A DNA stretch of 64,000 nucleotides from Deroplatys truncata. Its lineage: Eukaryota > Arthropoda > Insecta > Mantodea > Mantidae. This document shows positions 40,434 through 64,000 of this stretch, in pieces (position 1 is the stretch's first letter; each line of letters opens with the position of its first letter). The position numbers were made by a program, and so were the translations under genes. Where the stretch lies: the NCBI GenBank assembly GCA_030765065.1, contig CM060990.1:286157341-286221340 (forward strand), given 5' to 3'. The notes below the pieces were generated by a model. The model ran no database searches. It had not been told where the DNA came from and worked only from the letters and a program-made list of their open reading frames with translations.

Positions 40434-40439
40434 AACGGT
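40434..40439 (+). repeat. Left target-site duplication of Element 2
   Basis: AACGGT, exactly repeated at 59901-59906 directly after the element. Confidence 0.95.
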
Positions 40440-40484
40440 AGTAGGGTATATAGGACAGACCTGGGCCACTTTTTGCGTTTATAT

Positions 40485-41350
40485 GCGAAAGGATAGGGAA
40501 AACGAGGGTATATGCGGCGGTTCACGGAGGAAAATGCGTTTATATGGCGAAGATAGGGACTACGAGGATCGATGCTAGGCTAGATAGAGGTTGAAGGAAT
40601 GAGGATGTGCTTTATATGAGAGATACGTGAAATACGAAGAGAAGTGTTAGACTAGATAGGATTTGAGATATGGAATATGCATTTATATGGGAAAGATAGG
40701 GAGAACGTGAACAGATGCTAGGATAGACAGATGCTGAAGCAGGGAGAATATGAACATATATACAGGAGAGATAGGGGATGTGTGGAGAGGTACTAGACTA
40801 TTCAGGGTTTGAAGGGTAGAGTATGGCTTTTTATATGGAGAGACGAGGAAAACGAGGGTATATGCTAGGGTGAGAGAACCTTCAAGGAGGAAAAAATGCG
40901 TTTATATGGGAGAGATAGGGATAACGAGGAGAGTTCTGAGGTAGAGCAGGGACTGAAGGAGGGAGAGATATGCTTTATACGACAGAGATAGGGCATGCGA
41001 GGGGAGGTGCTAGTGCAGTCAGAGGTTAAGGAGTACGGTATACGATTATATGAGGAATATATGGAGAACGGAGGCAGGCGGTATGATAGACAGAAGCGGG
41101 GCTACTTTTGCGTTTATATGGGGAGGGATAGGGAAAACGAGGGTAGATGCGACAGTTCAAGGAGGAAAATACGTTTATAGGGGAGAGATAGGGAATACCA
41201 GGGCTGATGCTGGGCTAGTCAGATGCTAAAGGAGGGAGGGATATGCTTTATACGAGAGAGATAGGGAATACAAGGAAAGATGTTATACTAAACAGGACTT
41301 GAAGGCTAGAATATGACGTTTTATATGAGCGAGATAGCGAACCGAGGAGA
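40485..41350 (+). repeat. Subterminal array of about 12 degenerate ~72-bp repeats, left
   Basis: Units open with GCGTTTATATGGGAGAGATA-like sequence followed by GGGAAAACGAGGGTATATGC and a GAAGGAGGGA-like end. They start near 40476, 40535, 40610, 40680, 40755, 40828, 40899, 40971, 41042, 41111, 41172, 41247 and 41313. Being next to the tip, they may bind the integration or replication machinery; that is inference. Confidence 0.8.
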
Positions 41351-41384
41351 GGTAACCACGTGTCGAGACGTAACACCACGTAAC

Positions 41385-41900
41385 AAAGGAATCACGCTAT
41401 GTAACAAAGGAATCACGCCATGTAACAAAGGAATCACGTTATGTAACAAAGGAATCACGCTATGTAACAAAGGAATCACGCTATGTAACAAAGGAATCAC
41501 GCTATGTAACAAAGGAATCACGCAATGTAACAAAGGAATCACGCTATGTAACAAAGGAATCACGCTATGTAACAAAGGAATCACGCTATGTAACAAAGGA
41601 ATCACGCTATGTAACAAAGGAATCACGCTATGTAACAACATGATCACGCTATGTAACAAAGGAATCACGCTATGTAACAAAGGAATCACGCTATGTAACA
41701 AAGGAATCACGCTATGTAACAAAGGAATCACGCTATGTAACAAAGGAATCACGCTATGTAACAAAGGAATCACGCTATGTAACAAAGGAATCACGCTATG
41801 TAACAAAGGAATCACGCTATGTAACAAAGGAATCACGCTATGTAAGAAGCTCATCACGCTATGTAACAGTCTCATCACGCTATGTAACAACACGTACCAA
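41385..41900 (+). repeat. 21-bp minisatellite, left arm
   Basis: About 24 copies of GGAATCACGCTATGTAACAAA with few variants. Because 21 is a multiple of three, a frame stays open on both strands (repeating GITLCNK one way, LLHSVIP the other). I read this as a minisatellite rather than a gene. Confidence 0.95.
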
Positions 41901-41939
41901 GCATGTAACCAAGTAACAAAACGTAAGAACAACACGTAA

Positions 41940-42397
41940 CCAATCTATTGCTAAGTCAATCTAAACTAATTCATCCTTCATAACTTAGACAATAAGTACG
42001 AGAGCCTAGCCCAGATTAACCCGACCAATCCTAAACGTTCCTCTCAGCATCTATTCTACTCGGTCATCGACTAACCTAATCTGGCTAACCAAAGATAACC
42101 TCAACTTTCTTTTAGTGAAATTGCAATGTTTTATTCAGGCTTTATTATTCGAGAGTTTTAATTGAAAAGTTTACGTCAACATACCTTTATTTTAGTTCCT
42201 TGTAGGCGTCTCTCCCCTTTTTATCTAGGCTTGAGACTAGCACTAGGATCGCTCCTAATGGCAGGGTTACCACCTTCCCTTCCATCTTCTTCTTTCTTTA
42301 TCGGACGTCAGCTAGCTGCATATACAGCACACGGATAACCTTCATTTTTTAAGATTGTAGACTCACGAGAAAATCTTCATATTCGACTTAAATTCTC
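41940..42397. other. 3' flank of the left polymerase gene with polyadenylation signals
   Basis: Mirror of 57929-58385. Three AATAAA signals on the minus strand lie between about 42130 and 42192, 200-270 bp after the polymerase stop. No other gene is seen. Confidence 0.5.
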
Positions 42398-45300
42398 TTA
42401 TACACTACTTGTAATGTTGTAATGTCCATAGGCGTATGTCGTTATTCCGTCCTCAGCAATAATTCTTTTATCGTCGTATGGTGTCAATGTAATTTTATTA
42501 ACTTGTACTGTGGCAAGAGCATGCTGTCGCGACAGGATCAGATTCATGGGCGTTCTGGTAATTTCTCCGGTTTTAAGGCAGTCAGTATAGCTCTCGAACG
42601 TGACGTACTGCTTAATAGCACTACGTTTTATACCTTTAATCTTTTTTATCATTGAACCGTCGATATCTAGGGCATACATTTTAGGTCGTAGCCCTACAAA
42701 GCGTTGAATGATTTTACCATTAGCCTCATCTTTAAATTTCCCAAGTACCTTCTTGTTTAGAGGTGAATAGCATATATGGCTTGTAGGATAATCAGCAGTA
42801 TCTAGGTGCTCAAGAAAACGTAGCTTATCCTGGTACACATCTTCAGTTGTAACACGATGAATGAACGAATCAGTGTCCATATACATAAGCTTCAGGTTTT
42901 CAGCTCCATAATACGGTAACAACACATCATAGTGATACCGGTACATTAATGTCTTGGAGATATCCAACACACTCATACCGATGTATATAGGCTTGTTGAA
43001 CATGATCTGTCGGGAGGCCATATGTACAGCAGCTAGATTATCAGCATATATCGTCCTGTCGATAAACGTTGGCTTTGCAATTAACTTTTCCAGAGTCTTC
43101 TCATTTGTCACCAGTCGTATATCCATACGGTTACGCAGGTTCTCCATAGTTTTTCCGAACATAGCATTGTTGAACAATTTGTAGAGATCCTTCTCAAAAT
43201 CATTTCCAGCTTGTTGTCGTAGTCTGTTGTTAAATTCCACATACGGTTTTAACCATCGAGACTGTTGGAATTGTAGCACACGACGGATTTTTGTTAACCG
43301 TAGTCCATGATCAAGAGCTTGCTTCAAAGCCTTGTAATGCACTACATACTTCTTTCGAGGTCCTAGATGAGGTATCAGTTTCTTTGTAGATGCTTCCAAT
43401 GGTTTCATACACTCTGGCAGGAAAGGTAGATCGTTGTGTAGATCGTGAAGTTCTGCAGGATACTCGATGTCGACTTCTAATATGTAGCCGTAAGGATCAT
43501 CTTCTTGTAGTCTTTCTAAGTCAATTTTTTCAGGCGATACCCACTCAAATCCACCATAAGGGAGAGCGTGACACATTGCCCACCCATATTGGTTATTAGC
43601 GTCGTCATATGTGATAAATTGGGTTGGTCTCGACGGATCAAACTTCTCCATATATGTGTTATTAGCCTCTGCATACCGATGGGAAACTTGACATAAACCT
43701 CCTCTTATACCAGATTCCACCATGAGTAATTGATCATAATCCTGTAACAGTTCCAGCTTAATTCCAGTATACAGTAACATGGCGTCCCATGTAAGACCTG
43801 GAGAGGTAAAATAATGTGCAGGATCAACTTTGTGTGTTTTGAGGGTTTGCTCTCTGAACGTCTCAAAGACATCAGCTAGGAGAAGTACATCCGAAGTTAA
43901 GTAGAGATCGCTGTACTCTCCCAGGTTTCTCACATTAAACAGCTCCCATACATTTTTAGCATGATCGTAGTCAGCATCACTAATTTCTTCTTCATTTAAT
44001 CTATTGTAGAAGGAGTCCTTAGGAGGTAAGCAGGTTTCGTTCAGGGCATCCCATGATGTAACAAAATCATATGGAAATACACCCTTACGGGTCATCAACT
44101 TCAATTTGTCTTCTCCAAAGTACTTTAGCGTTTCAGGATATGAGGTTAGATTTTTTACCAACTTATCCAAGCTTGTACTGAGGAATCGGAAGCTATCCAC
44201 AAATCGAAGCTTTATATCTCCTACATACTTGGTGAATGAGATATAGCTTTCTTCAGAGTTAGGAATTACCTCCACACGTTCACTTGTACAACCCAGCTCC
44301 TTAACAATGAAATGAGAGTCATATCCGCTAAGGTTATGCATGAAGACTGGTATATATTTAGGTGTTTTACAGGCTAAATTACATTCATTATGAAGACTTC
44401 CACGATATTCACCGCTGATGTGATCATGGTCGCGTACTTTATAGTTCTCTTCTGTAAAGGGTTTTCCACACAAGTAGCATGCTGAAGAAGACTCAAAATC
44501 CAACTGCTCTTGATCCGTAAGTTTCAGAGGCTTAGCAGATTTGTATATGTCCTCAATCATTTTTGCAAGAGATGTCAGGTACAGCATAAACTTCTGAGCA
44601 GCATCAGCACCACGATACACATAGGGTTGCTTAGGAAGACCAGTTTCCAGATGTCCAACGTTGGTTGATGGTTTAACGTAAACACAGAAGCTCATTGCTG
44701 TGTGCTCTTGATAAGGGGTTGTATAGGAAGTTTCAGGATTGGGTATACACGTATGGCATGGAGTGAGAATACTTTCAAAGTCTGCGTAGATGACGTAAGG
44801 TAGTTTCAACATCCTTTCAAAATTTTTAAACTGTACGATTGATTTGTCCTTTGTAGGCATAACTACCCTCGCAACACCATGTTGGCTACAGATTGATGTA
44901 TGTTCTTGCAGTTTTTCCAGTCCACTTCGTTCGTATCGATTGTCAAAATGTGTAAAGCACCGCTTACAGGTATATATCACTCCATCATGCTTAGTTTTCT
45001 GTCGTCGAACGAGCTTCTCAAAATTCTTGATATATACATAGTGATGTTTTCCACTACTGTCATTCAATAGTAGCAGGTCGCGATGTTCAGGTAGTTCAAT
45101 ATCAACAACCTTTATCGGGTACACTTCATGCTTCTCATCCAACCCGAAAACGTTAATAGTCATCTTGTTAAGCTTCTCAAATTTAGGTATTTGAGAAAGT
45201 GGAGTAGGGTAAGAAACACAGCTGAAGTCGTACTTATCTTGAAGTTGTTTGTATTTGCTGACGCGTTGAGGCTTGGTGCTCACGAATTTGGCCAATACAG

Positions 45301-46051
45301 AGTACATGAAACATAGCTCATCAGTTAAGTTCTGGATGTTAATGCAGGCTTTTCTTGCTTCAACAGAGGGAGGTAGGGGTATGTAGCTACTTCCTCGCAA
45401 CGGGTTGTACTTGTTAATACGAAGGCGTACCCCTTCCACAGTAAGCAAGGCCCAGCTGCTACCCTTAAGCTGAGACTCATCCATTTCAGTAACCAATTTC
45501 TTGAATTTCACTTCCAGCATAGAGTCCAGATCAGTTTCTAGGAAAACAGCTTGATTTCTGGTTTTAAATGTCTTGTCACAGGTTTCACCAATACTGTTAA
45601 CAAATCGACACTCAGCCAGCAGATTAATTTTAACACTCTTATGAATGCTAAGCTCTTTATGCACAGCCTGGATTATCCGTTGTTTTGCCTCTCGCAGATA
45701 CATATTCAGGTCCTTAGTCGATTCACATCGTATAAAATACGATTTCAAGCGTCCATGGAATGAAGTTTCGTATTCTTTCATATCACAGTCCTCCATTGTT
45801 GACAGCAACTGATGTTTAGTTGTCTCCAATCTTCTTTTCTTCTGAGGGCTGCTTATTTCACATATATCTTCGTGTCGCTGCCCCTTATAACCATCTTTGA
45901 AGGTTACATTACAATGTTTACATTTGAAGAACTTCTTGCAGCTCATCTCATGTCTTCTCTTGTCATAACCTCGGAGGAACTTCTTCCCACATTTTCCGCA
46001 TGCATATCCAGTAGCGCTTGGAATAATATCCTTATACGCTGAGTTATTCAT
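42398..46051 (-). CDS. polB: Protein-primed-type DNA polymerase B, left arm
   Basis: 1217 codons, intact. Type-B polymerase of the organellar/viral group (DNA_pol_B_2) found in Polintons and adintovirus-like elements; expected to copy the element's DNA in the nucleus. Order: two C2H2/C2HC-type zinc fingers (Cys18-Cys38, Cys44-Cys64), a basic KKRR stretch (71-74), Exo I ADFES (423-427), an endonuclease-VII-like zinc patch (CYLCGK at 525-530 with DHDH and HNECN, 541-557), Exo II HNLSGYDSH (572-580), an Exo III-like LTSDVLLLADVF (718-729), motif A TYDDANNQYG (814-823), motif B LFNNAMFGKTMEN (959-971) and motif C YMDTDS (1057-1062). All catalytic motifs are intact. The start ATG lies about 120 bases after the predicted transcription start, and zinc fingers begin at residue 18, so this start is plausible. 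It differs from the right copy at residues 77 (Thr) and 301 (Val). Confidence 0.95.
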   Translation of the reverse strand: MNNSAYKDIIPSATGYACGKCGKKFLRGYDKRRHEMSCKKFFKCKHCNVTFKDGYKGQRHEDICEISSPQKKRRLETTKHQLLSTMEDCDMKEYETSFHGRLKSYFIRCESTKDLNMYLREAKQRIIQAVHKELSIHKSVKINLLAECRFVNSIGETCDKTFKTRNQAVFLETDLDSMLEVKFKKLVTEMDESQLKGSSWALLTVEGVRLRINKYNPLRGSSYIPLPPSVEARKACINIQNLTDELCFMYSVLAKFVSTKPQRVSKYKQLQDKYDFSCVSYPTPLSQIPKFEKLNKMTINVFGLDEKHEVYPIKVVDIELPEHRDLLLLNDSSGKHHYVYIKNFEKLVRRQKTKHDGVIYTCKRCFTHFDNRYERSGLEKLQEHTSICSQHGVARVVMPTKDKSIVQFKNFERMLKLPYVIYADFESILTPCHTCIPNPETSYTTPYQEHTAMSFCVYVKPSTNVGHLETGLPKQPYVYRGADAAQKFMLYLTSLAKMIEDIYKSAKPLKLTDQEQLDFESSSACYLCGKPFTEENYKVRDHDHISGEYRGSLHNECNLACKTPKYIPVFMHNLSGYDSHFIVKELGCTSERVEVIPNSEESYISFTKYVGDIKLRFVDSFRFLSTSLDKLVKNLTSYPETLKYFGEDKLKLMTRKGVFPYDFVTSWDALNETCLPPKDSFYNRLNEEEISDADYDHAKNVWELFNVRNLGEYSDLYLTSDVLLLADVFETFREQTLKTHKVDPAHYFTSPGLTWDAMLLYTGIKLELLQDYDQLLMVESGIRGGLCQVSHRYAEANNTYMEKFDPSRPTQFITYDDANNQYGWAMCHALPYGGFEWVSPEKIDLERLQEDDPYGYILEVDIEYPAELHDLHNDLPFLPECMKPLEASTKKLIPHLGPRKKYVVHYKALKQALDHGLRLTKIRRVLQFQQSRWLKPYVEFNNRLRQQAGNDFEKDLYKLFNNAMFGKTMENLRNRMDIRLVTNEKTLEKLIAKPTFIDRTIYADNLAAVHMASRQIMFNKPIYIGMSVLDISKTLMYRYHYDVLLPYYGAENLKLMYMDTDSFIHRVTTEDVYQDKLRFLEHLDTADYPTSHICYSPLNKKVLGKFKDEANGKIIQRFVGLRPKMYALDIDGSMIKKIKGIKRSAIKQYVTFESYTDCLKTGEITRTPMNLILSRQHALATVQVNKITLTPYDDKRIIAEDGITTYAYGHYNITSSV

Positions 46052-46201
46052 CTTTATTCTTGATGTAATAACGTATTAATCACTGATCAATGAAATGTAC
46101 GCCTTGACACCACTTTAGAAAGCTGATTATTCTTGGAGAGAACACGATGTTAACACCTCAGAGATGATCAACAGAATGAATTTCAATACTCAAGTTCGCT
46201 C

Positions 46202-46209
46202 TATTTATA
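46202..46209 (-). promoter_or_regulatory. TATA box of the left polymerase gene
   Basis: TATAAATA on the minus strand, inside CTATAAATAG, about 150 bases upstream of the ATG at 46051, with an initiator-like TTCATTC some 30 bases downstream. Mirrors 54117-54124. Confidence 0.65.
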
Positions 46210-46849
46210 GAGAAAGCACGAACCTTTTTTAATCAATTATATCCTGATTATTAATACTAAAACGGTGATGAAGCGTGTAAGCTCTTATATATTTCAATTC
46301 GTGTTACACTGATGTTCGAGCGTCTCCGTATAGCTTCGTATGTTTAGAGAGAAAGTGTAAAGTATTGTGAAGATGTTATGTATTGTTCGGCTATAATCGT
46401 ACAGATTCGGAGAGCTTGACTGGTGAAGGTAATGAACGATCCGTCAACCGAGCAGGAGGCAAGCAGCCCCAGTCTAGAGACAGGATGTTTATGACGTCAC
46501 ACCCAGAGACAGGATGTCTGCCAGTATCAAACACGTTTAAACTCGTCTCGTAACTACCTGTATATGCTGTCACATCAACAAGAGAAGTATTCCCACACGC
46601 TCATTCAGTCAGATGTTACATTCAAAGCCTACCACCACCCATTACACCGAAGCTAGCACAATCTCAAAAGCTTAAAAGGAAACCTAGAAGATTTTCCCCC
46701 TTACTTACTTAAATGTGTGTATATACTACATTATTTCATGTTTTCATTCCCTTTTCAATTCTTCCTTTCCATCTTGTTCTAGAAAGACCATTACATTTCA
46801 CTACAATCATGAGAAAAGCAATTTTTCCAGAGTTACAGAGATTCTAAGC

Positions 46850-47300
46850 TTCTAGAATCGAACTCGGTAATACTTTTAATAAATGGGTTTTAGTAATTTA
46901 GCTTCCCCGCATCAGCATCTACCATTTAATCTTTACTCGAACCTGATAGGATTCATAGGCTTGAAGATATATGAAATCACCCCTTCGGGATTCGATCTGA
47001 GTACTTTAAAGTAGTTATCGTCATAATAACGATATTTAGGAACTAGGTACTCTGTTTACGTTTACCTTGACATGTCTATCTAAATTAAATTACGAATTAT
47101 TAAATGTTTACAAGTAAATTTCATTAAATCGGTATTCGAACCCAGAACACCAGGAACAAAATAATTTATAATATTAGCTTGACATGTTAAACAAAGCTGT
47201 ATGCAGTTACATCATCGATCTAAGCGATATATTCTAGTGTACAGAGGAAAATTAAGGAAGTCATTAAAAAATCGGGATTCGAACTAGAGACAACTGATAC
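46850..47300 (-). repeat. Regularly spaced B-box-like modules, left arm
   Basis: Mirror of the right-arm set: GTTCGAATCCC-type motifs on the minus strand near 46860, 47000, 47140 and 47280, about 133-144 bp apart. Confidence 0.5.
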
Positions 47301-48431
47301 AGTAAAAACAGACCTCATTAGTACTCATCATGCTTAAGCATGTTAACTTTCACCATATGACGTCACAGTCGGGGACAGTTTGACTATCGCAGCCATGTCA
47401 GGAAATGCATATTTTAGTCATCTCATATTTTAGAGTCATATACAGAAACCAGGCAAAACCATGAAAAATATGTCAGAGTGAACAACCATCGACAATCGAA
47501 CGAGGGAAACCATCAGATTACTCTAGGAGCATAAAGTGCAACTGAAAGAAAATCGTGATAGCTGAGAAACCACTCCAGCATTCGCGTGCAGACCAGGGGA
47601 AACTATGAAAAAATCAAAGGGCCGAGCGAGTGGCTGATAGAGTGTGCGACCAACAGGAAATCAAGCAAAAGGTCTCTAGAGACAAAAAAGATGCAATTGA
47701 AATGGAATCATGATAGCAAATGCCGCTACAGCATTAGGTAGCAGACCGGCGAAAATCATGAGAAACGTAAGGTCAGAGTAAACAATTGATTGAAATCTAA
47801 CCCCTGAACCCTAGAAATTCACGACAACTGAAAAACGAAACCCAGATGTAGAGGAAATTTTGTACACCCTTGACGAAAAAACCCCGTCCGCTGGGGAAGT
47901 AACCTTTAAGTATACAATTGACGTCGGTCATACCGATAAGGGACGGTTTGAAAGGCTTCCTAATTGCTCTACGCAAGTCACCTGAGCAAACACAGGAAAT
48001 TCCTAAACCAGACAATTACAAGCCTGCTAAAACATTTTTTCCTACAATAAGTAATTTAAATTCTACATGAAGATTATTCCAAAAAGTTTCATATCTCTTA
48101 TTTCCTTCAATAAAATATCGAATATGACTCTAGCACCAGGGAAAAAAATTAAACGGAGGGAAGCGATATTTTCTTTTTACGCTGAAATTATAATTAAATG
48201 CATAGCGTTCTTGCATGAAAACACTGCCCATATAGATTATAGGAATGGACTCTGTTTAAAACATGTATTTTTTCACGCGTGGTGTATAGATTGTCTCAGT
48301 AAGCATTCGTGACTATTACAATTATCGCCAAGTATTATTTTACAAAAAGATCGGCTTATTCTCTTAGTAAACATAGGTTGAAATCGTTTTTAAACAACTC
48401 TCCATTCGAGAGATATTTTTTGATTATTCCA

Positions 48432-48464
<33 letters not shown>

Positions 48465-49880
48465 GAGCCATATTTGTTTAAAAAAGCTTTTTTTTCATTC
48501 GCAGGAAATCTTCGAGAAAATTCGAGGAATTATTCAGTTGTACACCCTTGCTAAAATAGTTTGTATACCCTTTGAAGAATGTTTACCTGGTTGGCAGAGT
48601 CTACCTCTGTCGACAGGCTGTCGCCCGCATGGCATCTTGGGCATTTATACATTAGGGAGACTATTGTGCTTTAAAATGGGATAGCTATGTTTTAAGCTTT
48701 CCACAACAAATTTTTCCCCGATAATTAATATAATTCTACATGAAGAATATTAATGATTTAAGTTTTCAATTAAACGTATACTGTATAGATTCTGTACTTA
48801 AACATTCGATTGTATCTTTGTCATTATTTAAATACTCGCGTACAAGAATTGCTAGCATATCAAAAATTGTAGAAGTTTTTCCACCCTTATTTAATTAAAT
48901 TCATGTATATACTCTATTATTTAGCGATTTTTTCAATAATCATGTACATCATTCGTCAAAAAATCAGCGTACAATACGCATTTTTATACGTTTTAATGTT
49001 CGTTTATTTTTAAAACCGCTGCATTTGCCTCTAATTACGAACAATTAGATTTCAGATTTACTCAGATGTGTAGCTTGTAGAATCGAATTAGAAAATATTT
49101 TAATAAATGTATTGTATTTTTTAGGTTAAACCATCGTTATTTGTATTCAGCGTAAAGATATTCATATATCATTTTTAAATCCCTCTTCTTAAATATAATG
49201 TATCGCAATCCATTTTTAAAATCAAATCATAAATGCGTTTAATGCATATAATAGATGTCTTCATATACCCAATATGGCTGCCATGCACGTTAAACATTCA
49301 ATATGGGCGCGTCAGGCATCTTTTTCATTGAACATGCTTCCGACTCTCTCCGCTAGGTGGAGCGCATGATGCCTGCTACGAGGATGGAGGGGGACAAAAC
49401 AGATTTATTTACGCCTGCATTGAAGATAGCGTACCAGTCGGCCTGAGAGCCTCGTTCAGGGAGGTCGTATAGTTCTCGCAGCCATGTTAATACGCGTCGT
49501 CGTATCGCATGTTCGTTACGTAATTTTTTTTGTTTTTATCTTTCTTAGTCATACATTCATCTAAGAGATATAATATTCGCAAGGATGACAGATGTCCAAA
49601 TATACATAACAAAGAAATTAGTTACGGACATAAATGTAATATCGTATGTTCACCATTTTATTTTAATTACTTTTTTATTTTATTCGAGGGATGAAATTTG
49701 TATTCATGTCACTGGATTCAATCCTAGTCCTCCAGCCCGACTTGGAACAACAATCAATAACGAGCTACAATCCAAGGATATAATCGGTAATAATAAATTT
49801 TTTTTTGATAAAGACCGTCAAATAAAAAGCCCTTTAAACGTATGTATTTCCCCTCACTTCCCCTCTGCCCCCCACCACAC
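47301..49880. other. AT-rich interior of Element 2, left arm, no recognised gene
   Basis: Holds one unit related to Element 1's 146-bp repeat (47575-47635, inverted), blocks shared with Element 1 (47880-47910, 48040-48110, 48690-48760), the (GA)n-containing shared block at 48358-48490, and a pyrimidine-rich end at 49850-49880. Open frames at 47797-48015 (minus), 48067-48312 and 49585 onward (plus) are mirrored because the arms are copies, and show no recognisable domain. Confidence 0.55.
48358..48490 (+). repeat. Block shared with Element 1 (copy 3 of 4), with (GA)n tract
   Basis: As 18640-18775, but the AGCAGAGAGA stretch has expanded to about 14 GA units at 48434-48462. The inverted arm has the matching CT run at 51867-51892. 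Confidence 0.85.
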
Positions 49881-50449
49881 AGTAGATATATTAGGAGAGA
49901 ACACAGCTTCAAAGCCGATGCAACCACTGATAAGTTCCTTTCTTCTATGCCGCCGACTCCCACCCCCGCTTTTTGCTATTCCGACACCGCCATTTACGAT
50001 GAGAACAATAATGCATTGTCCTGTGTCTCTGATTTGCGGTGAAAGAATAGCACACGTGAAAACACTTAACCTTTGTGGTTTCACCCTTAAAAGCTACTGG
50101 AGCATGATACCCCTCCTCTCTGCTCTACTCCCACGCTGGCTTAGACGATTTGAACAATAGTCCATTGTTCTCCAATACCGAGGTCAGCGTTGGAGTAGAG
50201 CAGAGAGGAGGGGGATCGGGTGTCCAGTAGCTTTTAAGGGTGAGGTCACAAGGGAAGGAGAGGAGGAGGGGTGGCCGCAAGCACGTGAGCAGACCACATG
50301 GAGGGAGGGGGCGGGGCTAGTGGCACGTTCGGGCAGGGCGGCAAATAGTAGCGCACAAAGGGAGGGGGCGGGGCTTGTCGGCATAGATCAAAGAAGCTTA
50401 TCAGATGGCGGCAAATCCTCTGTTTCAGAACTCTCCTAATATATCTACT
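49881..50449. mobile_element. 569-bp mini-element at the palindrome centre
   Basis: Opens with AGTAGATATATTAGGAGAG and closes with the exact inverse, the same tip family as Element 1. The interior of each half is homologous but diverged: CTGATAAGTTCC/CTGATAAGCTTC, TCTATGCCGCCGACT/TCTATGCCGACAAGC and CACCCTTAAAAGCTACTGGA in both. The halves meet near 50155-50170 (GAACAATAGTCCATTGTTC). The flanks CACCACAC and GTGTGGTG are inverted copies, not a direct duplication. It is probably a short fold-back derivative of the Element 1 family that sat inside the precursor of Element 2. Confidence 0.75.
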
Positions 50450-53040
50450 GTGTGGTGGGGGGCAGAGGGGAAGTGAGGGGAAATACATACGTTTAAAGGG
50501 CTTTTTATTTGACGGTCTTTATCAAAAAAAAATTTATTATTACCGATTATATCCTTGGATTGTAGCTCGTTATTGATTGTTGTTCCAAGTCGGGCTGGAG
50601 GACTAGGATTGAATCCAGTGACATGAATACAAATTTCATCCCTCGAATAAAATAAAAAAGTAATTAAAATAAAATGGTGAACATACGATATTACATTTAT
50701 GTCCGTAACTAATTTCTTTGTTATGTATATTTGGACATCTGTCATCCTTGCGAATATTATATCTCTTAGATGAATGTATGACTAAGAAAGATAAAAACAA
50801 AAAAAATTACGTAACGAACATGCGATACGACGACGCGTATTAACATGGCTGCGAGAACTATACGACCTCCCTGAACGAGGCTCTCAGGCCGACTGGTACG
50901 CTATCTTCAATGCAGGCGTAAATAAATCTGTTTTGTCCCCCTCCATCCTCGTAGCAGGCATCATGCGCTCCACCTAGCGGAGAGAGTCGGAAGCATGTTC
51001 AATGAAAAAGATGCCTGACGCGCCCATATTGAATGTTTAACGTGCATGGCAGCCATATTGGGTATATGAAGACATCTATTATATGCATTAAACGCATTTA
51101 TGATTTGATTTTAAAAATGGATTGCGATACATTATATTTAAGAAGAGGGATTTAAAAATGATATATGAATATCTTTACGCTGAATACAAATAACGATGGT
51201 TTAACCTAAAAAATACAATACATTTATTAAACTATTTTCTAATTCGATTCTACAAGCTACACATCTGAGTAAATCTGAAATCTAATTGTTCGTAATTAGA
51301 GGCAAATGCAGCGGTTTTAAAAATAAACGAACATTAAAACGTATAAAAATGCGTATTGTACGCTGATTTTTTGACGAATGATGTACATGATTATTGAAAA
51401 AATCGCTAAATAATAGAGTATATACATGAATTTAATTAAATAAGGGTGGAAAAACTTCTACAATTTTTGATATGCTAGCAATTCTTGTACGCGAGTATTT
51501 AAATAATGACAAAGATACAATCGAATGTTTAAGTACAGAATCTATACAGTATACGTTTAATTGAAAACTTAAATCATTAATATTCTTCATGTAGAATTAT
51601 ATTAATTATCGGGGAAAAATTTGTTGTGGAAAGCTTAAAACATAGCTATCCCATTTTAAAGCACAATAGTCTCCCTAATGTATAAATGCCCAAGATGCCA
51701 TGCGGGCGACAGCCTGTCGACAGAGGTAGACTCTGCCAACCAGGTAAACATTCTTCAAAGGGTATACAAACTATTTTAGCAAGGGTGTACAACTGAATAA
51801 TTCCTCGAATTTTCTCGAAGATTTCCTGCGAATGAAAAAAAAGCTTTTTTAAACAAATATGGCTCGATCTCTCTCTCTCTCTCTCTCTCTCTGCTGGAAT
51901 AATCAAAAAATATCTCTCGAATGGAGAGTTGTTTAAAAACGATTTCAACCTATGTTTACTAAGAGAATAAGCCGATCTTTTTGTAAAATAATACTTGGCG
52001 ATAATTGTAATAGTCACGAATGCTTACTGAGACAATCTATACACCACGCGTGAAAAAATACATGTTTTAAACAGAGTCCATTCCTATAATCTATATGGAC
52101 AGTGTTTTCATGCAAGAACGCTATGCATTTAATTATAATTTCAGCGTAAAAAGAAAATATCGCTTCCCTCCGTTTAATTTTTTTCCCTGGTGCTAGAGTC
52201 ATATTCGATATTTTATTGAAGGAAATAAGAGATATGAAACTTTTTGGAATAATCTTCATGTAGAATTTAAATTACTTATTGTAGGAAAAAATGTTTTAGC
52301 AGGCTTGTAATTGTCTGGTTTAGGAATTTCCTGTGTTTGCTCAGGTGACTTGCGTAGAGCAATTAGGAAGCCTTTCAAACCGTCCCTTATCGGTATGACC
52401 GACGTCAATTGTATACTTAAAGGTTACTTCCCCAGCGGACGGGGTTTTTTCGTCAAGGGTGTACAAAATTTCCTCTACATCTGGGTTTCGTTTTTCAGTT
52501 GTCGTGAATTTCTAGGGTTCAGGGGTTAGATTTCAATCAATTGTTTACTCTGACCTTACGTTTCTCATGATTTTCGCCGGTCTGCTACCTAATGCTGTAG
52601 CGGCATTTGCTATCATGATTCCATTTCAATTGCATCTTTTTTGTCTCTAGAGACCTTTTGCTTGATTTCCTGTTGGTCGCACACTCTATCAGCCACTCGC
52701 TCGGCCCTTTGATTTTTTCATAGTTTCCCCTGGTCTGCACGCGAATGCTGGAGTGGTTTCTCAGCTATCACGATTTTCTTTCAGTTGCACTTTATGCTCC
52801 TAGAGTAATCTGATGGTTTCCCTCGTTCGATTGTCGATGGTTGTTCACTCTGACATATTTTTCATGGTTTTGCCTGGTTTCTGTATATGACTCTAAAATA
52901 TGAGATGACTAAAATATGCATTTCCTGACATGGCTGCGATAGTCAAACTGTCCCCGACTGTGACGTCATATGGTGAAAGTTAACATGCTTAAGCATGATG
53001 AGTACTAATGAGGTCTGTTTTTACTGTATCAGTTGTCTCT
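50450..53040. other. AT-rich interior of Element 2, right arm, no recognised gene
   Basis: Mirror of 47301-49880 with the same shared blocks. CACTCGCTCGGCCCTTTGAT at about 52693 begins the unit related to Element 1's 146-bp repeat. Confidence 0.55.
51830..51965 (-). repeat. Block shared with Element 1 (copy 4 of 4), with (CT)n tract
   Basis: Inverse of 48358-48490. Confidence 0.85.
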
Positions 53041-53480
53041 AGTTCGAATCCCGATTTTTTAATGACTTCCTTAATTTTCCTCTGTACACTAGAATATATC
53101 GCTTAGATCGATGATGTAACTGCATACAGCTTTGTTTAACATGTCAAGCTAATATTATAAATTATTTTGTTCCTGGTGTTCTGGGTTCGAATACCGATTT
53201 AATGAAATTTACTTGTAAACATTTAATAATTCGTAATTTAATTTAGATAGACATGTCAAGGTAAACGTAAACAGAGTACCTAGTTCCTAAATATCGTTAT
53301 TATGACGATAACTACTTTAAAGTACTCAGATCGAATCCCGAAGGGGTGATTTCATATATCTTCAAGCCTATGAATCCTATCAGGTTCGAGTAAAGATTAA
53401 ATGGTAGATGCTGATGCGGGGAAGCTAAATTACTAAAACCCATTTATTAAAAGTATTACCGAGTTCGATTCTAGAAGCTT
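53041..53480 (+). repeat. Regularly spaced B-box-like modules, right arm
   Basis: AGTTCGAATCCC at 53041, GGTTCGAATACC at 53184, AGATCGAATCCC at 53328 and GAGTTCGATTCT at 53461 lie 143, 144 and 133 bp apart. The second to fourth fit the pol III B-box shape. A related AATTCGATTCTACAAGC is at 51239. No cloverleaf could be folded by eye. Confidence 0.5.
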
Positions 53481-53910
53481 AGAATCTCTGTAACTCTGGA
53501 AAAATTGCTTTTCTCATGATTGTAGTGAAATGTAATGGTCTTTCTAGAACAAGATGGAAAGGAAGAATTGAAAAGGGAATGAAAACATGAAATAATGTAG
53601 TATATACACACATTTAAGTAAGTAAGGGGGAAAATCTTCTAGGTTTCCTTTTAAGCTTTTGAGATTGTGCTAGCTTCGGTGTAATGGGTGGTGGTAGGCT
53701 TTGAATGTAACATCTGACTGAATGAGCGTGTGGGAATACTTCTCTTGTTGATGTGACAGCATATACAGGTAGTTACGAGACGAGTTTAAACGTGTTTGAT
53801 ACTGGCAGACATCCTGTCTCTGGGTGTGACGTCATAAACATCCTGTCTCTAGACTGGGGCTGCTTGCCTCCTGCTCGGTTGACGGATCGTTCATTACCTT
53901 CACCAGTCAA

Positions 53911-54015
53911 GCTCTCCGAATCTGTACGATTATAGCCGAACAATACATAACATCTTCACAATACTTTACACTTTCTCTCTAAACATACGAAGCTATACGG
54001 AGACGCTCGAACATC
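53911..54015 (+). promoter_or_regulatory. Upstream block of the polymerase gene, conserved in Element 1
   Basis: CTCCGAATCTGTACGATTAT, ATCTTCACAATACTTTAC and ATACGGAGACGCTCGAACAT match 21230-21320 in Element 1. It lies 100-200 bp upstream of the TATA box. Conservation between relatives suggests a regulatory or origin role; that is inference. Confidence 0.45.
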
Positions 54016-54116
54016 AGTGTAACACGAATTGAAATATATAAGAGCTTACACGCTTCATCACCGTTTTAGTATTAATAATCAGGATATAATTGATTAAAAA
54101 AGGTTCGTGCTTTCTC

Positions 54117-54124
54117 TATAAATA
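54117..54124 (+). promoter_or_regulatory. TATA box of the right polymerase gene
   Basis: TATAAATA inside CTATAAATAG; an initiator-like TTCATTC follows about 30 bases later (near 54146) and the ATG is at 54275, giving a 5' leader of roughly 125 bases. Confidence 0.65.
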
Positions 54125-54274
54125 GAGCGAACTTGAGTATTGAAATTCATTCTGTTGATCATCTCTGAGGTGTTAACATCGTGTTCTCTCCAAGAATAAT
54201 CAGCTTTCTAAAGTGGTGTCAAGGCGTACATTTCATTGATCAGTGATTAATACGTTATTACATCAAGAATAAAG

Positions 54275-57200
54275 ATGAATAACTCAGCGTATAAGGATAT
54301 TATTCCAAGCGCTACTGGATATGCATGCGGAAAATGTGGGAAGAAGTTCCTCCGAGGTTATGACAAGAGAAGACATGAGATGAGCTGCAAGAAGTTCTTC
54401 AAATGTAAACATTGTAATGTAACCTTCAAAGATGGTTATAAGGGGCAGCGACACGAAGATATATGTGAAATAAGCAGCCCTCAGAAGAAAAGAAGATTGG
54501 AGCCAACTAAACATCAGTTGCTGTCAACAATGGAGGACTGTGATATGAAAGAATACGAAACTTCATTCCATGGACGCTTGAAATCGTATTTTATACGATG
54601 TGAATCGACTAAGGACCTGAATATGTATCTGCGAGAGGCAAAACAACGGATAATCCAGGCTGTGCATAAAGAGCTTAGCATTCATAAGAGTGTTAAAATT
54701 AATCTGCTGGCTGAGTGTCGATTTGTTAACAGTATTGGTGAAACCTGTGACAAGACATTTAAAACCAGAAATCAAGCTGTTTTCCTAGAAACTGATCTGG
54801 ACTCTATGCTGGAAGTGAAATTCAAGAAATTGGTTACTGAAATGGATGAGTCTCAGCTTAAGGGTAGCAGCTGGGCCTTGCTTACTGTGGAAGGGGTACG
54901 CCTTCGTATTAACAAGTACAACCCGTTGCGAGGAAGTAGCTACATACCCCTACCTCCCTCTGTTGAAGCAAGAAAAGCCTGCATTAACATCCAGAACTTA
55001 ACTGATGAGCTATGTTTCATGTACTCTGTATTGGCCAAATTCGTGAGCACCAAGCCTCAACGCGTCAGCAAATACAAACAACTTCAAGATAAGTACGACT
55101 TCAGCTGTGTTTCTTACCCTACTCCACTTTCTCAAATACCTAAATTTGAGAAGCTTAACAAGATGACTATTAACATTTTCGGGTTGGATGAGAAGCATGA
55201 AGTGTACCCGATAAAGGTTGTTGATATTGAACTACCTGAACATCGCGACCTGCTACTATTGAATGACAGTAGTGGAAAACATCACTATGTATATATCAAG
55301 AATTTTGAGAAGCTCGTTCGACGACAGAAAACTAAGCATGATGGAGTGATATATACCTGTAAGCGGTGCTTTACACATTTTGACAATCGATACGAACGAA
55401 GTGGACTGGAAAAACTGCAAGAACATACATCAATCTGTAGCCAACATGGTGTTGCGAGGGTAGTTATGCCTACAAAGGACAAATCAATCGTACAGTTTAA
55501 AAATTTTGAAAGGATGTTGAAACTACCTTACGTCATCTACGCAGACTTTGAAAGTATTCTCACTCCATGCCATACGTGTATACCCAATCCTGAAACTTCC
55601 TATACAACCCCTTATCAAGAGCACACAGCAATGAGCTTCTGTGTTTACGTTAAACCATCAACCAACGTTGGACATCTGGAAACTGGTCTTCCTAAGCAAC
55701 CCTATGTGTATCGTGGTGCTGATGCTGCTCAGAAGTTTATGCTGTACCTGACATCTCTTGCAAAAATGATTGAGGACATATACAAATCTGCTAAGCCTCT
55801 GAAACTTACGGATCAAGAGCAGTTGGATTTTGAGTCTTCTTCAGCATGCTACTTGTGTGGAAAACCCTTTACAGAAGAGAACTATAAAGTACGCGACCAT
55901 GATCACATCAGCGGTGAATATCGTGGAAGTCTTCATAATGAATGTAATTTAGCCTGTAAAACACCTAAATATATACCAGTCTTCATGCATAACCTTAGCG
56001 GATATGACTCTCATTTCATTGTTAAGGAGCTGGGTTGTACAAGTGAACGTGTGGAGGTAATTCCTAACTCTGAAGAAAGCTATATCTCATTCACCAAGTA
56101 TGTAGGAGATATAAAGCTTCGATTTGTGGATAGCTTCCGATTCCTCAGTACAAGCTTGGATAAGTTGGTAAAAAATCTAACCTCATATCCTGAAACGCTA
56201 AAGTACTTTGGAGAAGACAAATTGAAGTTGATGACCCGTAAGGGTGTATTTCCATATGATTTTGTTACATCATGGGATGCCCTGAACGAAACCTGCTTAC
56301 CTCCTAAGGACTCCTTCTACAATAGATTAAATGAAGAAGAAATTAGTGATGCTGACTACGATCATGCTAAAAATGTATGGGAGCTGTTTAATGTGAGAAA
56401 CCTGGGAGAGTACAGCGATCTCTACTTAACTTCGGATGTACTTCTCCTAGCTGATGTCTTTGAGACGTTCAGAGAGCAAACCCTCAAAACACACAAAGTT
56501 GATCCTGCACATTATTTTACCTCTCCAGGTCTTACATGGGACGCCATGTTACTGTATACTGGAATTAAGCTGGAACTGTTACAGGATTATGATCAATTAC
56601 TCATGGTGGAATCTGGTATAAGAGGAGGTTTATGTCAAGTTTCCCATCGGTATGCAGAGGCTAATAACACATATATGGAGAAGTTTGATCCGTCGAGACC
56701 AACCCAATTTATCACATATGACGACGCTAATAACCAATATGGGTGGGCAATGTGTCACGCTCTCCCTTATGGTGGATTTGAGTGGGTATCGCCTGAAAAA
56801 ATTGACTTAGAAAGACTACAAGAAGATGATCCTTACGGCTACATATTAGAAGTCGACATCGAGTATCCTGCAGAACTTCACGATCTACACAACGATCTAC
56901 CTTTCCTGCCAGAGTGTATGAAACCATTGGAAGCATCTACAAAGAAACTGATACCTCATCTAGGACCTCGAAAGAAGTATGTAGTGCATTACAAGGCTTT
57001 GAAGCAAGCTCTTGATCATGGACTACGGTTAACAAAAATCCGTCGTGTGCTACAATTCCAACAGTCTCGATGGTTAAAACCGTATGTGGAATTTAACAAC
57101 AGACTACGACAACAAGCTGGAAATGATTTTGAGAAGGATCTCTACAAATTGTTCAACAATGCTATGTTCGGAAAAACTATGGAGAACCTGCGTAACCGTA

Positions 57201-57928
57201 TGGATATACGACTGGTGACAAATGAGAAGACTCTGGAAAAGTTAATTGCAAAGCCAACGTTTATCGACAGGACGATATATGCTGATAATCTAGCTGCTGT
57301 ACATATGGCCTCCCGACAGATCATGTTCAACAAGCCTATATACATCGGTATGAGTGTGTTGGATATCTCCAAGACATTAATGTACCGGTATCACTATGAT
57401 GTGTTGTTACCGTATTATGGAGCTGAAAACCTGAAGCTTATGTATATGGACACTGATTCGTTCATTCATCGTGTTACAACTGAAGATGTGTACCAGGATA
57501 AGCTACGTTTTCTTGAGCACCTAGATACTGCTGATTATCCTACAAGCCATATATGCTATTCACCTCTAAACAAGAAGGTACTTGGGAAATTTAAAGATGA
57601 GGCTAATGGTAAAATCATTCAACGCTTTGTAGGGCTACGACCTAAAATGTATGCCCTAGATATCGACGGTTCAATGATAAAAAAGATTAAAGGTATAAAA
57701 CGTAGTGCTATTAAGCAGTACGTCACGTTCGAGAGCTATACTGACTGCCTTAAAACCGGAGAAATTACCAGAACGCCCATGAATCTGATCCTGTCGCGAC
57801 AGCATGCTCTTGCCACAGTACAAGTTAATAAAATTACATTGACACCATACGACGATAAAAGAATTATTGCTGAGGACGGAATAACGACATACGCCTATGG
57901 ACATTACAACATTACAAGTAGTGTATAA
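54275..57928 (+). CDS. polB: Protein-primed-type DNA polymerase B, right arm
   Basis: Intact 1217-codon twin of the left gene, read toward the right tip, with the same zinc fingers, exonuclease motifs, endonuclease-VII-like patch and polymerase motifs A, B and C at the same residues. It has Pro at residue 77 and Ile at 301. The N-terminal ~400 residues before Exo I are long for the polymerase itself; in Polintons this region can include the terminal-protein function that primes copying, but no priming residue can be named here. The palm region also has LGKFKDEANGKIIQRFVGL (1103-1121), a conserved stretch in this family. Both copies being open argues for recent duplication or selection. Confidence 0.95.
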   Translation: MNNSAYKDIIPSATGYACGKCGKKFLRGYDKRRHEMSCKKFFKCKHCNVTFKDGYKGQRHEDICEISSPQKKRRLEPTKHQLLSTMEDCDMKEYETSFHGRLKSYFIRCESTKDLNMYLREAKQRIIQAVHKELSIHKSVKINLLAECRFVNSIGETCDKTFKTRNQAVFLETDLDSMLEVKFKKLVTEMDESQLKGSSWALLTVEGVRLRINKYNPLRGSSYIPLPPSVEARKACINIQNLTDELCFMYSVLAKFVSTKPQRVSKYKQLQDKYDFSCVSYPTPLSQIPKFEKLNKMTINIFGLDEKHEVYPIKVVDIELPEHRDLLLLNDSSGKHHYVYIKNFEKLVRRQKTKHDGVIYTCKRCFTHFDNRYERSGLEKLQEHTSICSQHGVARVVMPTKDKSIVQFKNFERMLKLPYVIYADFESILTPCHTCIPNPETSYTTPYQEHTAMSFCVYVKPSTNVGHLETGLPKQPYVYRGADAAQKFMLYLTSLAKMIEDIYKSAKPLKLTDQEQLDFESSSACYLCGKPFTEENYKVRDHDHISGEYRGSLHNECNLACKTPKYIPVFMHNLSGYDSHFIVKELGCTSERVEVIPNSEESYISFTKYVGDIKLRFVDSFRFLSTSLDKLVKNLTSYPETLKYFGEDKLKLMTRKGVFPYDFVTSWDALNETCLPPKDSFYNRLNEEEISDADYDHAKNVWELFNVRNLGEYSDLYLTSDVLLLADVFETFREQTLKTHKVDPAHYFTSPGLTWDAMLLYTGIKLELLQDYDQLLMVESGIRGGLCQVSHRYAEANNTYMEKFDPSRPTQFITYDDANNQYGWAMCHALPYGGFEWVSPEKIDLERLQEDDPYGYILEVDIEYPAELHDLHNDLPFLPECMKPLEASTKKLIPHLGPRKKYVVHYKALKQALDHGLRLTKIRRVLQFQQSRWLKPYVEFNNRLRQQAGNDFEKDLYKLFNNAMFGKTMENLRNRMDIRLVTNEKTLEKLIAKPTFIDRTIYADNLAAVHMASRQIMFNKPIYIGMSVLDISKTLMYRYHYDVLLPYYGAENLKLMYMDTDSFIHRVTTEDVYQDKLRFLEHLDTADYPTSHICYSPLNKKVLGKFKDEANGKIIQRFVGLRPKMYALDIDGSMIKKIKGIKRSAIKQYVTFESYTDCLKTGEITRTPMNLILSRQHALATVQVNKITLTPYDDKRIIAEDGITTYAYGHYNITSSV

Positions 57929-58134
57929 GAGAATTTAAGTCGAATATGAAGATTTTCTCGTGAGTCTACAATCTTAAAAAATGAAGGTTATCCGTGTGCT
58001 GTATATGCAGCTAGCTGACGTCCGATAAAGAAAGAAGAAGATGGAAGGGAAGGTGGTAACCCTGCCATTAGGAGCGATCCTAGTGCTAGTCTCAAGCCTA
58101 GATAAAAAGGGGAGAGACGCCTACAAGGAACTAA

Positions 58135-58196
58135 AATAAAGGTATGTTGACGTAAACTTTTCAATTAAAACTCTCGAATAATAAAGCCTGAATAAA
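58135..58196 (+). terminator. Polyadenylation signals of the right polymerase gene
   Basis: AATAAA at 58135-58140, 58180-58185 and 58191-58196, 207-268 bp after the stop. Confidence 0.55.
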
Positions 58197-58434
58197 ACAT
58201 TGCAATTTCACTAAAAGAAAGTTGAGGTTATCTTTGGTTAGCCAGATTAGGTTAGTCGATGACCGAGTAGAATAGATGCTGAGAGGAACGTTTAGGATTG
58301 GTCGGGTTAATCTGGGCTAGGCTCTCGTACTTATTGTCTAAGTTATGAAGGATGAATTAGTTTAGATTGACTTAGCAATAGATTGGTTACGTGTTGTTCT
58401 TACGTTTTGTTACTTGGTTACATGCTTGGTACGT

Positions 58435-58965
58435 GTTGTTACATCGCGTGATGAGACTGTTACATAGCGTGATGAGCTTCTTACATAGCGTGATTCCTTT
58501 GTTACATAGCGTGATTCCTTTGTTACATAGCGTGATTCCTTTGTTACATAGCGTGATTCCTTTGTTACATAGCGTGATTCCTTTGTTACATAGCGTGATT
58601 CCTTTGTTACATAGCGTGATTCCTTTGTTACATAGCGTGATCATGTTGTTACATAGCGTGATTCCTTTGTTACATAGCGTGATTCCTTTGTTACATAGCG
58701 TGATTCCTTTGTTACATAGCGTGATTCCTTTGTTACATAGCGTGATTCCTTTGTTACATTGCGTGATTCCTTTGTTACATAGCGTGATTCCTTTGTTACA
58801 TAGCGTGATTCCTTTGTTACATAGCGTGATTCCTTTGTTACATAACGTGTGTTACATAGCGTGATTCCTTTGTTACATAGCGTGATTCCTTTGTTACATA
58901 ACGTGATTCCTTTGTTACATGGCGTGATTCCTTTGTTACATAGCGTGATTCCTTTGTTACGTGGT
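58435..58965 (-). repeat. 21-bp minisatellite, right arm
   Basis: Inverse of 41385-41900 with a similar number of units. A unit truncated near 58848 (CATAACGTGTGTTACATAGC) breaks the open frame here but not in the left arm, so the array has changed since the arms were copied. Confidence 0.95.
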
Positions 58966-58989
58966 GTTACGTCTCGACACGTGGTTACC

Positions 58990-59860
58990 TCTCCTCGGTT
59001 CGCTATCTCGCTCATATAAAACGTCATATTCTAGCCTTCAAGTCCTGTTTAGTATAACATCTTTCCTTGTATTCCCTATCTCTCTCGTATAAAGCATATC
59101 CCTCCCTCCTTTAGCATCTGACTAGCCCAGCATCAGCCCTGGTATTCCCTATCTCTCCCCTATAAACGTATTTTCCTCCTTGAACTGTCGCATCTACCCT
59201 CGTTTTCCCTATCCCTCCCCATATAAACGCAAAAGTAGCCCCGCTTCTGTCTATCATACCGCCTGCCTCCGTTCTCCATATATTCCTCATATAATCGTAT
59301 ACCGTACTCCTTAACCTCTGACTGCACTAGCACCTCCCCTCGCATGCCCTATCTCTGTCGTATAAAGCATATCTCTCCCTCCTTCAGTCCCTGCTCTACC
59401 TCAGAACTCTCCTCGTTATCCCTATCTCTCCCATATAAACGCATTTTTTCCTCCTTGAAGGTTCTCTCACCCTAGCATATACCCTCGTTTTCCTCGTCTC
59501 TCCATATAAAAAGCCATACTCTACCCTTCAAACCCTGAATAGTCTAGTACCTCTCCACACATCCCCTATCTCTCCTGTATATATGTTCATATTCTCCCTG
59601 CTTCAGCATCTGTCTATCCTAGCATCTGTTCACGTTCTCCCTATCTTTCCCATATAAATGCATATTCCATATCTCAAATCCTATCTAGTCTAACACTTCT
59701 CTTCGTATTTCACGTATCTCTCATATAAAGCACATCCTCATTCCTTCAACCTCTATCTAGCCTAGCATCGATCCTCGTAGTCCCTATCTTCGCCATATAA
59801 ACGCATTTTCCTCCGTGAACCGCCGCATATACCCTCGTTTTCCCTATCCTTTCCCATATA
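58990..59860 (-). repeat. Subterminal array of ~72-bp repeats, right
   Basis: Inverse of 40485-41350. Confidence 0.8.
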
Positions 59861-59900
59861 AACGCAAAAAGTGGCCCAGGTCTGTCCTATATACCCTACT

Positions 59901-59906
59901 AACGGT
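59901..59906 (+). repeat. Right target-site duplication of Element 2
   Basis: AACGGT, exact partner of 40434-40439. Confidence 0.95.
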
Positions 59907-62264: not shown

Positions 62265-62528
62265 GCATTTCAGAGTTGAATCAAAACATTACAGCGCCGT
62301 AACAAAAACCATGCAAACGCGAGAGCACGTAATGTGTATTACTGGCATTTGTTCTGTTGTTTCATTATTATTATTTTTTTTTTATTATTATTATTATCAT
62401 CATCATCATCATCATCATCATCATCTACTATACGCATAATAGAGCAAATGAAAACATAAAAGCGCCGTAACGAAAACCATGCAAACACGAGAGCACGTAA
62501 TATGTGTTATTAGCATTTGTTCGCCTTC

Positions 62529-62563
<35 letters not shown>

Positions 62564-62885
62564 CATACTATACGCATAGTAGAGTTAATCAAAGCATTAA
62601 ATCGCCGTAACGAAAACCATGCAAACACGAGAGCATCTAATGTGTTTCACTGGCATTTGTTCGCTTGCTATCATTATTATTATTATAATTTATTATTATA
62701 CACTATACGCATAGTAGAGTAAATTAAACCATTAAAGTGCCGTAACGAAAATCATACAAACACGAAGGCACGTTATGTGTACCACTGGCATTTTTATCTT
62801 ACAATAATAATATTGTTATTATTATTATTATTATTATACGCATAGTAAAGTACTATAAATCAAAACATTAATGTACCAGATCTGC
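62265..62885 (+). repeat. Forward cluster of ~136-167 bp repeats with trinucleotide tracts
   Basis: Four copies plus a decayed fifth of a unit containing GCCGTAACGAAAACCATGCA (near 62296, 62463, 62603, 62739) and ACTATACGCATAGTAGAG. Each unit carries its own ATT or CAT tract (CAT run at 62396-62425; ATT runs near 62350, 62530, 62675, 62815). Confidence 0.9.
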
Positions 62886-63344
62886 GCCATAACTAAAGGT
62901 ATATAGAATAGGAAACAAAATAAAACATACGCAGGTCATAGCTTTATAATGTAAACAACGTTATCGATGCTTTGCTTAACTGCACTATTTTCTTTTACTC
63001 GAAGCGTTTTAAATGCCCTTATTAGAACAAAGAACCTATTATTGTTTCATCACTGATGAGCTTTGGTTTTGCATACATGTCGCTCACGTCCGATAAAGAG
63101 GCATTTAACATTTTGACAGCAGAATGCAGAGAGGAATACTATCGTGCCACACTTATGTAGCACTGTCTTATCAACCGAATGACCATTCATCTTCCTCACA
63201 CCACAGTCCACGACGTCATTAAAGGTTGTTTTACTTCAGACGAAGCAAAAGGATCGGTCATTAAGTTGAGAACACTGGTGATCCGAAGGATGGTGTTGCT
63301 GGTTCAGCAACAAATACAACAAGAACAAAAATAAAATAATAATA
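62886..63344. other. Spacer between inverted repeat clusters
   Basis: About 460 bp of single-copy-looking sequence with no gene, between the forward and reverse clusters. Confidence 0.6.
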
Positions 63345-63580
63345 ATAATAATAATACTGAACAAATGCTAGTGATACACATTATGTGCTCTCGTGTTTGC
63401 ATGGTTTTCGTTACGGTGCTTTAATGTTTTGATTTATTCTACTATGCGTATAGTACGTAACAATAACAATAGTAATAATAAGCAAGCGAACAAATGCCAA
63501 TGATACACATTACGTGCTCTTATGTTTGCGTGGTTCTCATTACGGTGGTTTAAAGCTTTGATTTACGCTACTATGCGTAT

Positions 63581-63631
<51 letters not shown>

Positions 63632-63872
63632 CAAGCGAACCAATGCCAGTGATAGATATTACGTACTCTGTGTTTGAATGGGTTTCATTTGGTTCTTCAA
63701 TGTTTTCATTTACTCTACAATGCGTATAGTGCGTAGTAATAATATTCATAATAATACTACTAATAATAGCAAGCGAACAAACGCCAGTAATGCACATTAC
63801 GTGCTCTCGCTTTTGCATGGTTTTCCTTACGGAAGTTTAATCTTTTGATTTACTCTAGTATGCGTTTAGTGC

Positions 63873-63907
<35 letters not shown>

Positions 63908-64000
63908 CAGTGATACACAGTACGTGCTCTCGTGGTTGCCTGGTTTTCGTTACGGCGCTTTTATGTTTTGATTTACTCTACTATGCGTATAGTACGTAAT
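63345..64000 (-). repeat. Reverse cluster of the same repeats, cut by the window end
   Basis: At least five inverted copies (GCATGGTTTTCGTTACGG-like near 63399, 63529, 63677, 63818, 63939) with AAT tracts (for example 63584-63625 and 63875-63905). Inverse orientation to 62265-62885. Confidence 0.9.

Follow-up and report, generated by a model that had tools for sequence, protein, structure and literature searches.

How does a transposable element come to be a palindrome along nearly its whole length? The question is raised by a 19,461-bp insertion, element A (40440–59900), in the genome of the mantis Deroplatys truncata (GenBank assembly GCA_030765065.1, contig CM060990.1). We analysed the 64,000-nucleotide stretch that contains it (positions 286,157,341 to 286,221,340 of the forward strand; hereafter the window, from whose first letter all coordinates are counted). 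Our data lead us to the view that A is, on balance, probably an inverted dimer built from one end of a Polinton- or adintovirus-like element, formed via fold-back at a nested mini-element and integrated as a unit. Two features of the locus go beyond its preliminary description: a nested hairpin mini-element that sits exactly at the axis of A, and a second palindromic element with AGTAG tips nearby, element B.

Element A is bounded by a 6-bp target duplication, AACGGT, read directly on the left (40434–40439) and on the right (59901–59906). Immediately inside lie its terminal tips, of 22 bp: the left tip (AGTAGGGTATATAGGACAGACC, 40440–40461, plus strand) is an exact match to the reverse complement of the right (59879–59900, minus strand), both begin AGTAGG, and a search of the window at up to three mismatches returned two matches, where 100 shuffles led us to expect none. 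The same 22 bp have no exact match in IMG/VR. Self-BLAST and alignment (piecewise for the right arm) delimit a left arm at 40440–49899 (plus) and a right arm at 50431–59900 (minus), the innermost 19 bases of each being common to the mini-element; at ~9.46 kb apiece, the inverted arms account for nearly the whole of the 19.46-kb element. They are 99.63% identical over 9,487 BLAST columns, in a match that extends 10–11 bases beyond the tips. The mirror symmetry of A stops at the tips, and the host flanks outside the duplication differ. The perfect duplication, the exact inverted tips and the near-identical arms of the preliminary description are thus all borne out.

The most divergent part of the arms is a 21-bp tandem array, with ~24 copies on the left (41380–41890, plus; Tandem Repeats Finder) and ~25 on the right (58436–58960, minus; Tandem Repeats Finder and alignment), in which whole units have been gained or lost rather than bases substituted. 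With the stretch that holds the array (41380–41944) and its mirror set aside, 5 substitutions and 5 gap positions separate the arms in 8,891 aligned bases (99.94% identity). Nearer the tip, degenerate subterminal repeats around TTTATATG occupy 40480–41330 of the left arm (plus strand; a motif listing judged by eye, with no statistics), and the same kind of listing places 12 TATATG sites within the first ~980 bp of that arm. To the eye, the repeats around TTTATATG in the first kilobase of A look like iterons.

Evidence on the origin of the palindrome comes firstly from its axis. The arms do not end at a simple spacer: they end within a 569-bp mini-element (49881–50449), recognised by tip search, flanks and fold, whose perfect 19-bp inverted tips (AGTAGATATATTAGGAGAG) begin AGTAG and are intact. 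Arm identity continues through these outer 19 bp and then collapses – the two halves of the mini-element inside its tips are 58% identical (38–47% in 20 shuffled controls), as against 100% for the tips and 99.94% for the arms outside. As single-stranded DNA the mini-element is predicted to form a strong, imperfect hairpin (DNA fold z −14.4; none of 100 shuffles was as good). Its flanks, CCACCACAC and GTGTGGTGG, form an inverted pair, identical as far as the same base on either side, and show no direct 6-bp repeat. This disfavours ordinary insertion of the mini-element into an existing palindrome, from which a direct repeat would be expected. The axis instead has the form expected of a fold-back dimer, that is, an inverted repeat with a spacer and 19 bp of perfect pairing beside a diverged interior; fold-back at the tips of the mini-element and subsequent copying would produce the observed arrangement, tips corrected to a perfect match included. 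Correction of annealed repeats to a perfect match is described in sae2-mutant fold-back clones of yeast (PMC10622511). A scan of the axis for bacterial promoters and terminators is uninformative here.

Each arm carries one intact open reading frame (ORF) of 1,217 residues, polB, directed outward as the preliminary description had it: copy 1 at 42398–46051 (minus strand, toward the left tip), with an endonuclease VII domain, and copy 2 at 54275–57928 (plus strand, toward the right tip). Of the 3,654 bases of the gene, 2 differ between the copies, and both differences change an amino acid. The predicted structure of residues 100–1217 of copy 2 groups the protein with the phi29 polymerase, of the protein-primed PolB type, and with the PolBs of adintoviruses and bidnaviruses; at the level of a model, it settles the PolB fold of the polymerase. 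Adintovirus PolBs are also among its best matches in a viral library. Pfam's DNA_pol_B_2 (PF03175) was not listed for the polymerase at a limit of E 10, a limit to be read with the HMMER filters in mind, which discard most matches above ~0.1; two relatives, P0011 (44% identical) and P0026 (41%), bear this domain in precomputed annotation. Sequence searches of the PDB returned mainly zinc fingers, along with Mediator subunit 15 (E 0.05) and the Hpy99I restriction endonuclease (E 0.14).

Viral relatives were sought in IMG/VR. A scan with polB alone gave one stretch that fit a pattern and none that was confirmed. A profile of 21 sequences gave four loci: L001, a near full-length PolB relative (38% identity) on a 17.4-kb viral contig, and L002–L004, which match only around the endonuclease VII domain. 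A closer profile recovered the L001 contig again; a third recovered it once more (as L005) together with L006, a 15.1-kb viral contig on which 5405–13279 holds a 1,313-aa polB relative and a tail-fibre/S74-like protein. L006 is 38% identical to P0043, the first sequence of the third profile, a figure that does not refer to the polymerase of A. On the L001 contig the PolB is accompanied by an rve integrase (E 6.4e-8) and an A32-like packaging ATPase (E 5.6e-11), and one protein there resembles a capsid weakly (E 0.028, under Pfam's cut-off). The PolB family is here linked to Polinton-like viruses by one contig, not by many.

Does A itself hold any of these other genes? The earlier claim that PolB is its only gene holds at the sensitivity of our searches: Pfam found no family at E≤1 in the six frames of 46052–49900, tblastn with ten proteins of the L001 contig matched nothing in the window at E≤0.1, and the stretch between left tip and polB was covered by ORF listing. 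Neither an rve integrase (of which a strongly diverged remnant could escape) nor a packaging ATPase nor a capsid was detected in A by these Pfam and tblastn searches; a protease and a P-type transposase family were looked for by Pfam in 46052–49900 and were not found there. The Polinton/Maverick traits claimed for A consequently stand in part. The 6-bp length of the duplication, the AG/AGT start of the tips (AGTAG) and the polymerase fold, of phi29/adintovirus type, are present; integrase, ATPase, protease and capsid are undetected at this search sensitivity, and the terminal repeats are anything but short. From the adintovirus set of PolB, integrase, capsid and maturation protease, PolB alone is recognised in A, and of the Foldback/Galileo traits neither was seen: no P-type transposase family came up in 46052–49900, and the duplication is of 6 bp, not 7–8 bp. 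Because the integrase, ATPase, protease and capsids were not detected we do not file A as a canonical Polinton; the evidence supports a Polinton-derived or Polinton-like element.

Like Polintons/Mavericks, A combines a 6-bp duplication, AGT-type ends and a protein-primed type of PolB with a size in the usual 15–25 kb (PMC8097293, PMC6431247); vertebrate Mavericks, our yardstick, show 6-bp duplications when intact and commonly end in (AGT)2, or in (AG)3 (PMC8097293). It departs from them in its undetected marker genes, its two polB genes and its ~9.46-kb arms; the terminal repeats of polinton-like viruses measure 230–860 nt (PMC12721341). With adintoviruses A has the PolB fold in common, whereas three Drosophila-associated adintoviruses are predicted to encode 10 to 12 proteins, the first of these viruses with integrase, capsid and protease homologues (PMC8363768). 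Bidnaviruses resemble A in placing a Polinton-derived PolB within a different genome architecture, but they are single-stranded DNA viruses with capsid and helicase genes (PMC4061559), whereas A is integrated in a chromosome and flanked by a 6-bp duplication. The Galileo/Foldback elements of Drosophila likewise have very long terminal inverted repeats able to absorb internal sequence; they differ in their P-superfamily transposase, their 7–8-bp duplications and their lack of PolB (PMC4168063). No description of a palindromic Polinton was recognised in the literature searched, a weak negative that covers open-licence papers: the excerpts of PMC4642659, PMC6431247 and PMC12721341 describe none, and a term search of PMC6035795 gave nothing.

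A second line of evidence is element B (15766–31967), also a palindrome with AGTAG tips and ~8.5 kb from A. Its left arm (15766–22529, plus; tip AGTAGATATTTATGAGAG), found by self-BLAST and arm alignment, and its right arm (24621–31967, minus; tip AGTAGGTATATTATGAGAG), aligned to the left with gaps of 372, 91 and 116 bp, are separated at the axis by a ~2.1-kb array of 105-bp tandem repeats (22530–24620; Tandem Repeats Finder). The 6-mers that flank it, GCGCTG (15760–15765) and ACGCTG (31968–31973), agree at five of six positions. In the outer 4.4 kb of the arms 90 of 4,374 aligned bases differ (~2%), and across 500-column bins that cover the arms in full, identity ranges between 95.4% and 99.6%; judged by arm divergence, B is older than A. 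The ends of the mini-element match the ends of B at 77–79% over 86–148 bases. No match to polB was found in B by tblastn, and two of its ORFs have no recognised Pfam domain. An ORF of 141/144 aa is present in both arms (19461–19886, plus; 27851–28285, minus), and its 144-aa version has no homologue at E≤0.001 among 27 candidates. That one 64-kb window holds a pair of giant palindromes whose tips begin alike suggests that palindrome formation recurs in this lineage. Outside the mini-element, A and B also have blocks in common (38–149 columns, 74–92% identical); their order and orientation are mixed, and we take them for dispersed repeats rather than a sign of common descent.

Taken together, these observations lead us to propose an origin for A in four steps. 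First, a PolB-bearing element would have held, inward of polB, a small B-type relative that was itself a long hairpin-former. Second, while a free or broken copy was being replicated or repaired, one strand would have folded back at the inverted tips of this mini-element – as the anatomy of the axis suggests – and served as primer for synthesis of the entire PolB arm. The product would have been a linear DNA, at first capped by a hairpin and later palindromic; the remainder of the element, including any integrase gene, would have been lost. Third, since the dimer would bear the same tip at both ends, an integrase acting in trans could have inserted it as a unit: the integrase of a relative would account for the 6-bp duplication and the intact tips that A displays. 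Fourth, the insertion appears young, with few differences between its arms and both polB frames open, and may still supply polymerase. Priming of A would be by protein, and element B may be an older product of the same process.

A parallel exists among viruses with protein-primed genomes. Adenovirus symmetric recombinants (SYREC) and inverted-duplication defective genomes show how a protein-primed linear genome can become an inverted dimer whose two ends carry one and the same terminus; they differ from A in being free viral DNA in culture rather than DNA integrated with a target duplication. Our literature searches found no paper on these recombinants. The closest published processes to the proposed mechanism appear to be fold-back duplication (PMC10622511) and origin-dependent inverted-repeat amplification (ODIRA), in which an extrachromosomal inverted dimer arises at short interrupted inverted repeats and integrates later (PMC4689423). 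The inverted dimers that both produce in yeast resemble A in being palindromes centred on a short interrupted inverted repeat; they are chromosomal or plasmid events, and come without transposon tips or a target duplication (PMC10622511, PMC4689423).

Several observations weigh against a fold-back origin of A at a nested B-type element. The axis of B is a tandem array and not a mini-element, so that the two axes differ in kind. Both A and B were noticed as palindromes; non-palindromic relatives would be missed, and a count of two out of two is biased accordingly. A scan of the window for AGTAG...CTACT pairs (15 or more of 20 tip positions matching, with five or more of the six duplicated bases) found A only, the tips of B differing by an indel. 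When the 87 non-self AGTAG sites of the window are ranked against A, the four B-type tips fall among the top seven, but a site inside polB, present in both arms, scores equal to the best of them; homology between the tips of A and B beyond AGTAG itself is, from such comparisons, only suggestive. Finally, L006, the second contig of the wider PolB family, has no rve by Pfam among its 7 ORFs of at least 150 aa.

The best placed of the alternatives, unlikely though we hold it to be, is that the palindrome is the normal form of a giant fold-back Polinton-like lineage, the axis hairpin acting as a hairpin telomere and inverted dimers being the regular form of replication and integration. The idea is in keeping with the palindromic form of the two large AGTAG elements recognised in the window, with the qualification that both were noticed through their palindromes, with an axis in A that is an imperfect hairpin-former, and with polB copies that are both open. 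Set against this, the axes of A and B are unlike, and the mini-element resembles a nested relative of B with AGTAG tips of its own rather than a dedicated telomere; moreover, protein-primed polymerases require no hairpin end. In its full form, to which we give the same low credence, the idea would describe a lineage that moves, as a rule, in the form of inverted dimers. In it a PolB half-genome, protein-primed at an AGTAG end and closed by a hairpin at the other, would replicate to a palindrome and integrate by its two identical tips with integrase supplied in trans, A and B representing two ages of one cycle.

Gradual growth of the terminal repeats is improbable. The repeats of a canonical Polinton could in principle have extended inward, by gene conversion or by recruitment of internal sequence, until only PolB remained, and the terminal repeats of Galileo do recruit internal non-repeat sequence (PMC4168063). 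Stepwise growth, however, does not predict arms that end at the inverted tips of a nested element. Slightly more improbable still is aberrant (alternative) transposition, in which the mini-element, acting between sister copies, would have brought two left arms together in inverted orientation. The presence at the axis of a mini-element whose AGTAG tips are intact would fit such an event, but integration should leave a 6-bp stagger, and the flanks are identical to the same base on either side; the perfect tip pair around a diverged interior is also better explained by fold-back. Long palindromes are a known type of artefact, from hairpin (fold-back) reads or chimeric amplification, but an assembly error is the least probable explanation of all, given that the symmetry ends at transposon tips, that these are bordered by a 6-bp duplication and by host flanks unlike each other, that the arms hold private substitutions and repeat-array indels, and that element B is a palindrome too, with ~2% divergence in its outer arms.

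Elsewhere in the window, an inverted repeat of ~290 bp (2307–2597 and 3880–4168, 86% identical) encloses a 132-aa ORF (2889–3287, minus) that by eye alone resembles part of a transposase, and a 422-aa ORF (7738–9006, minus) has a DDE_3 transposase domain (E 1.8e-8). The ORF at 34674–35375, by eye a retroelement piece, has no homologue at E≤0.001 among 625 candidates. At the right-hand end, 62251–64000 is an inverted-repeat region (62251–62835 against 63327–63877, 75% identity) with repeats of ~130–140 bp and ATT/TAA runs (Tandem Repeats Finder).

Ideas on how self-synthesising elements replicate in animals are based largely on models. An insertion that is young, palindromic and still intact at its axis junction would preserve, like a fossil, an intermediate of replication: a linear molecule, free and folded back on itself, that was copied from one end to the other before it integrated. 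Should further copies exist, the arm length and the axis of every palindrome would allow the replication model to be tested by sequence alone. Element A would show one route to PolB-only satellites of Polinton-like viruses; and were inverted dimers indeed the regular mobile form of the lineage, it would be a transposon in which protein priming and a hairpin telomere occur together.
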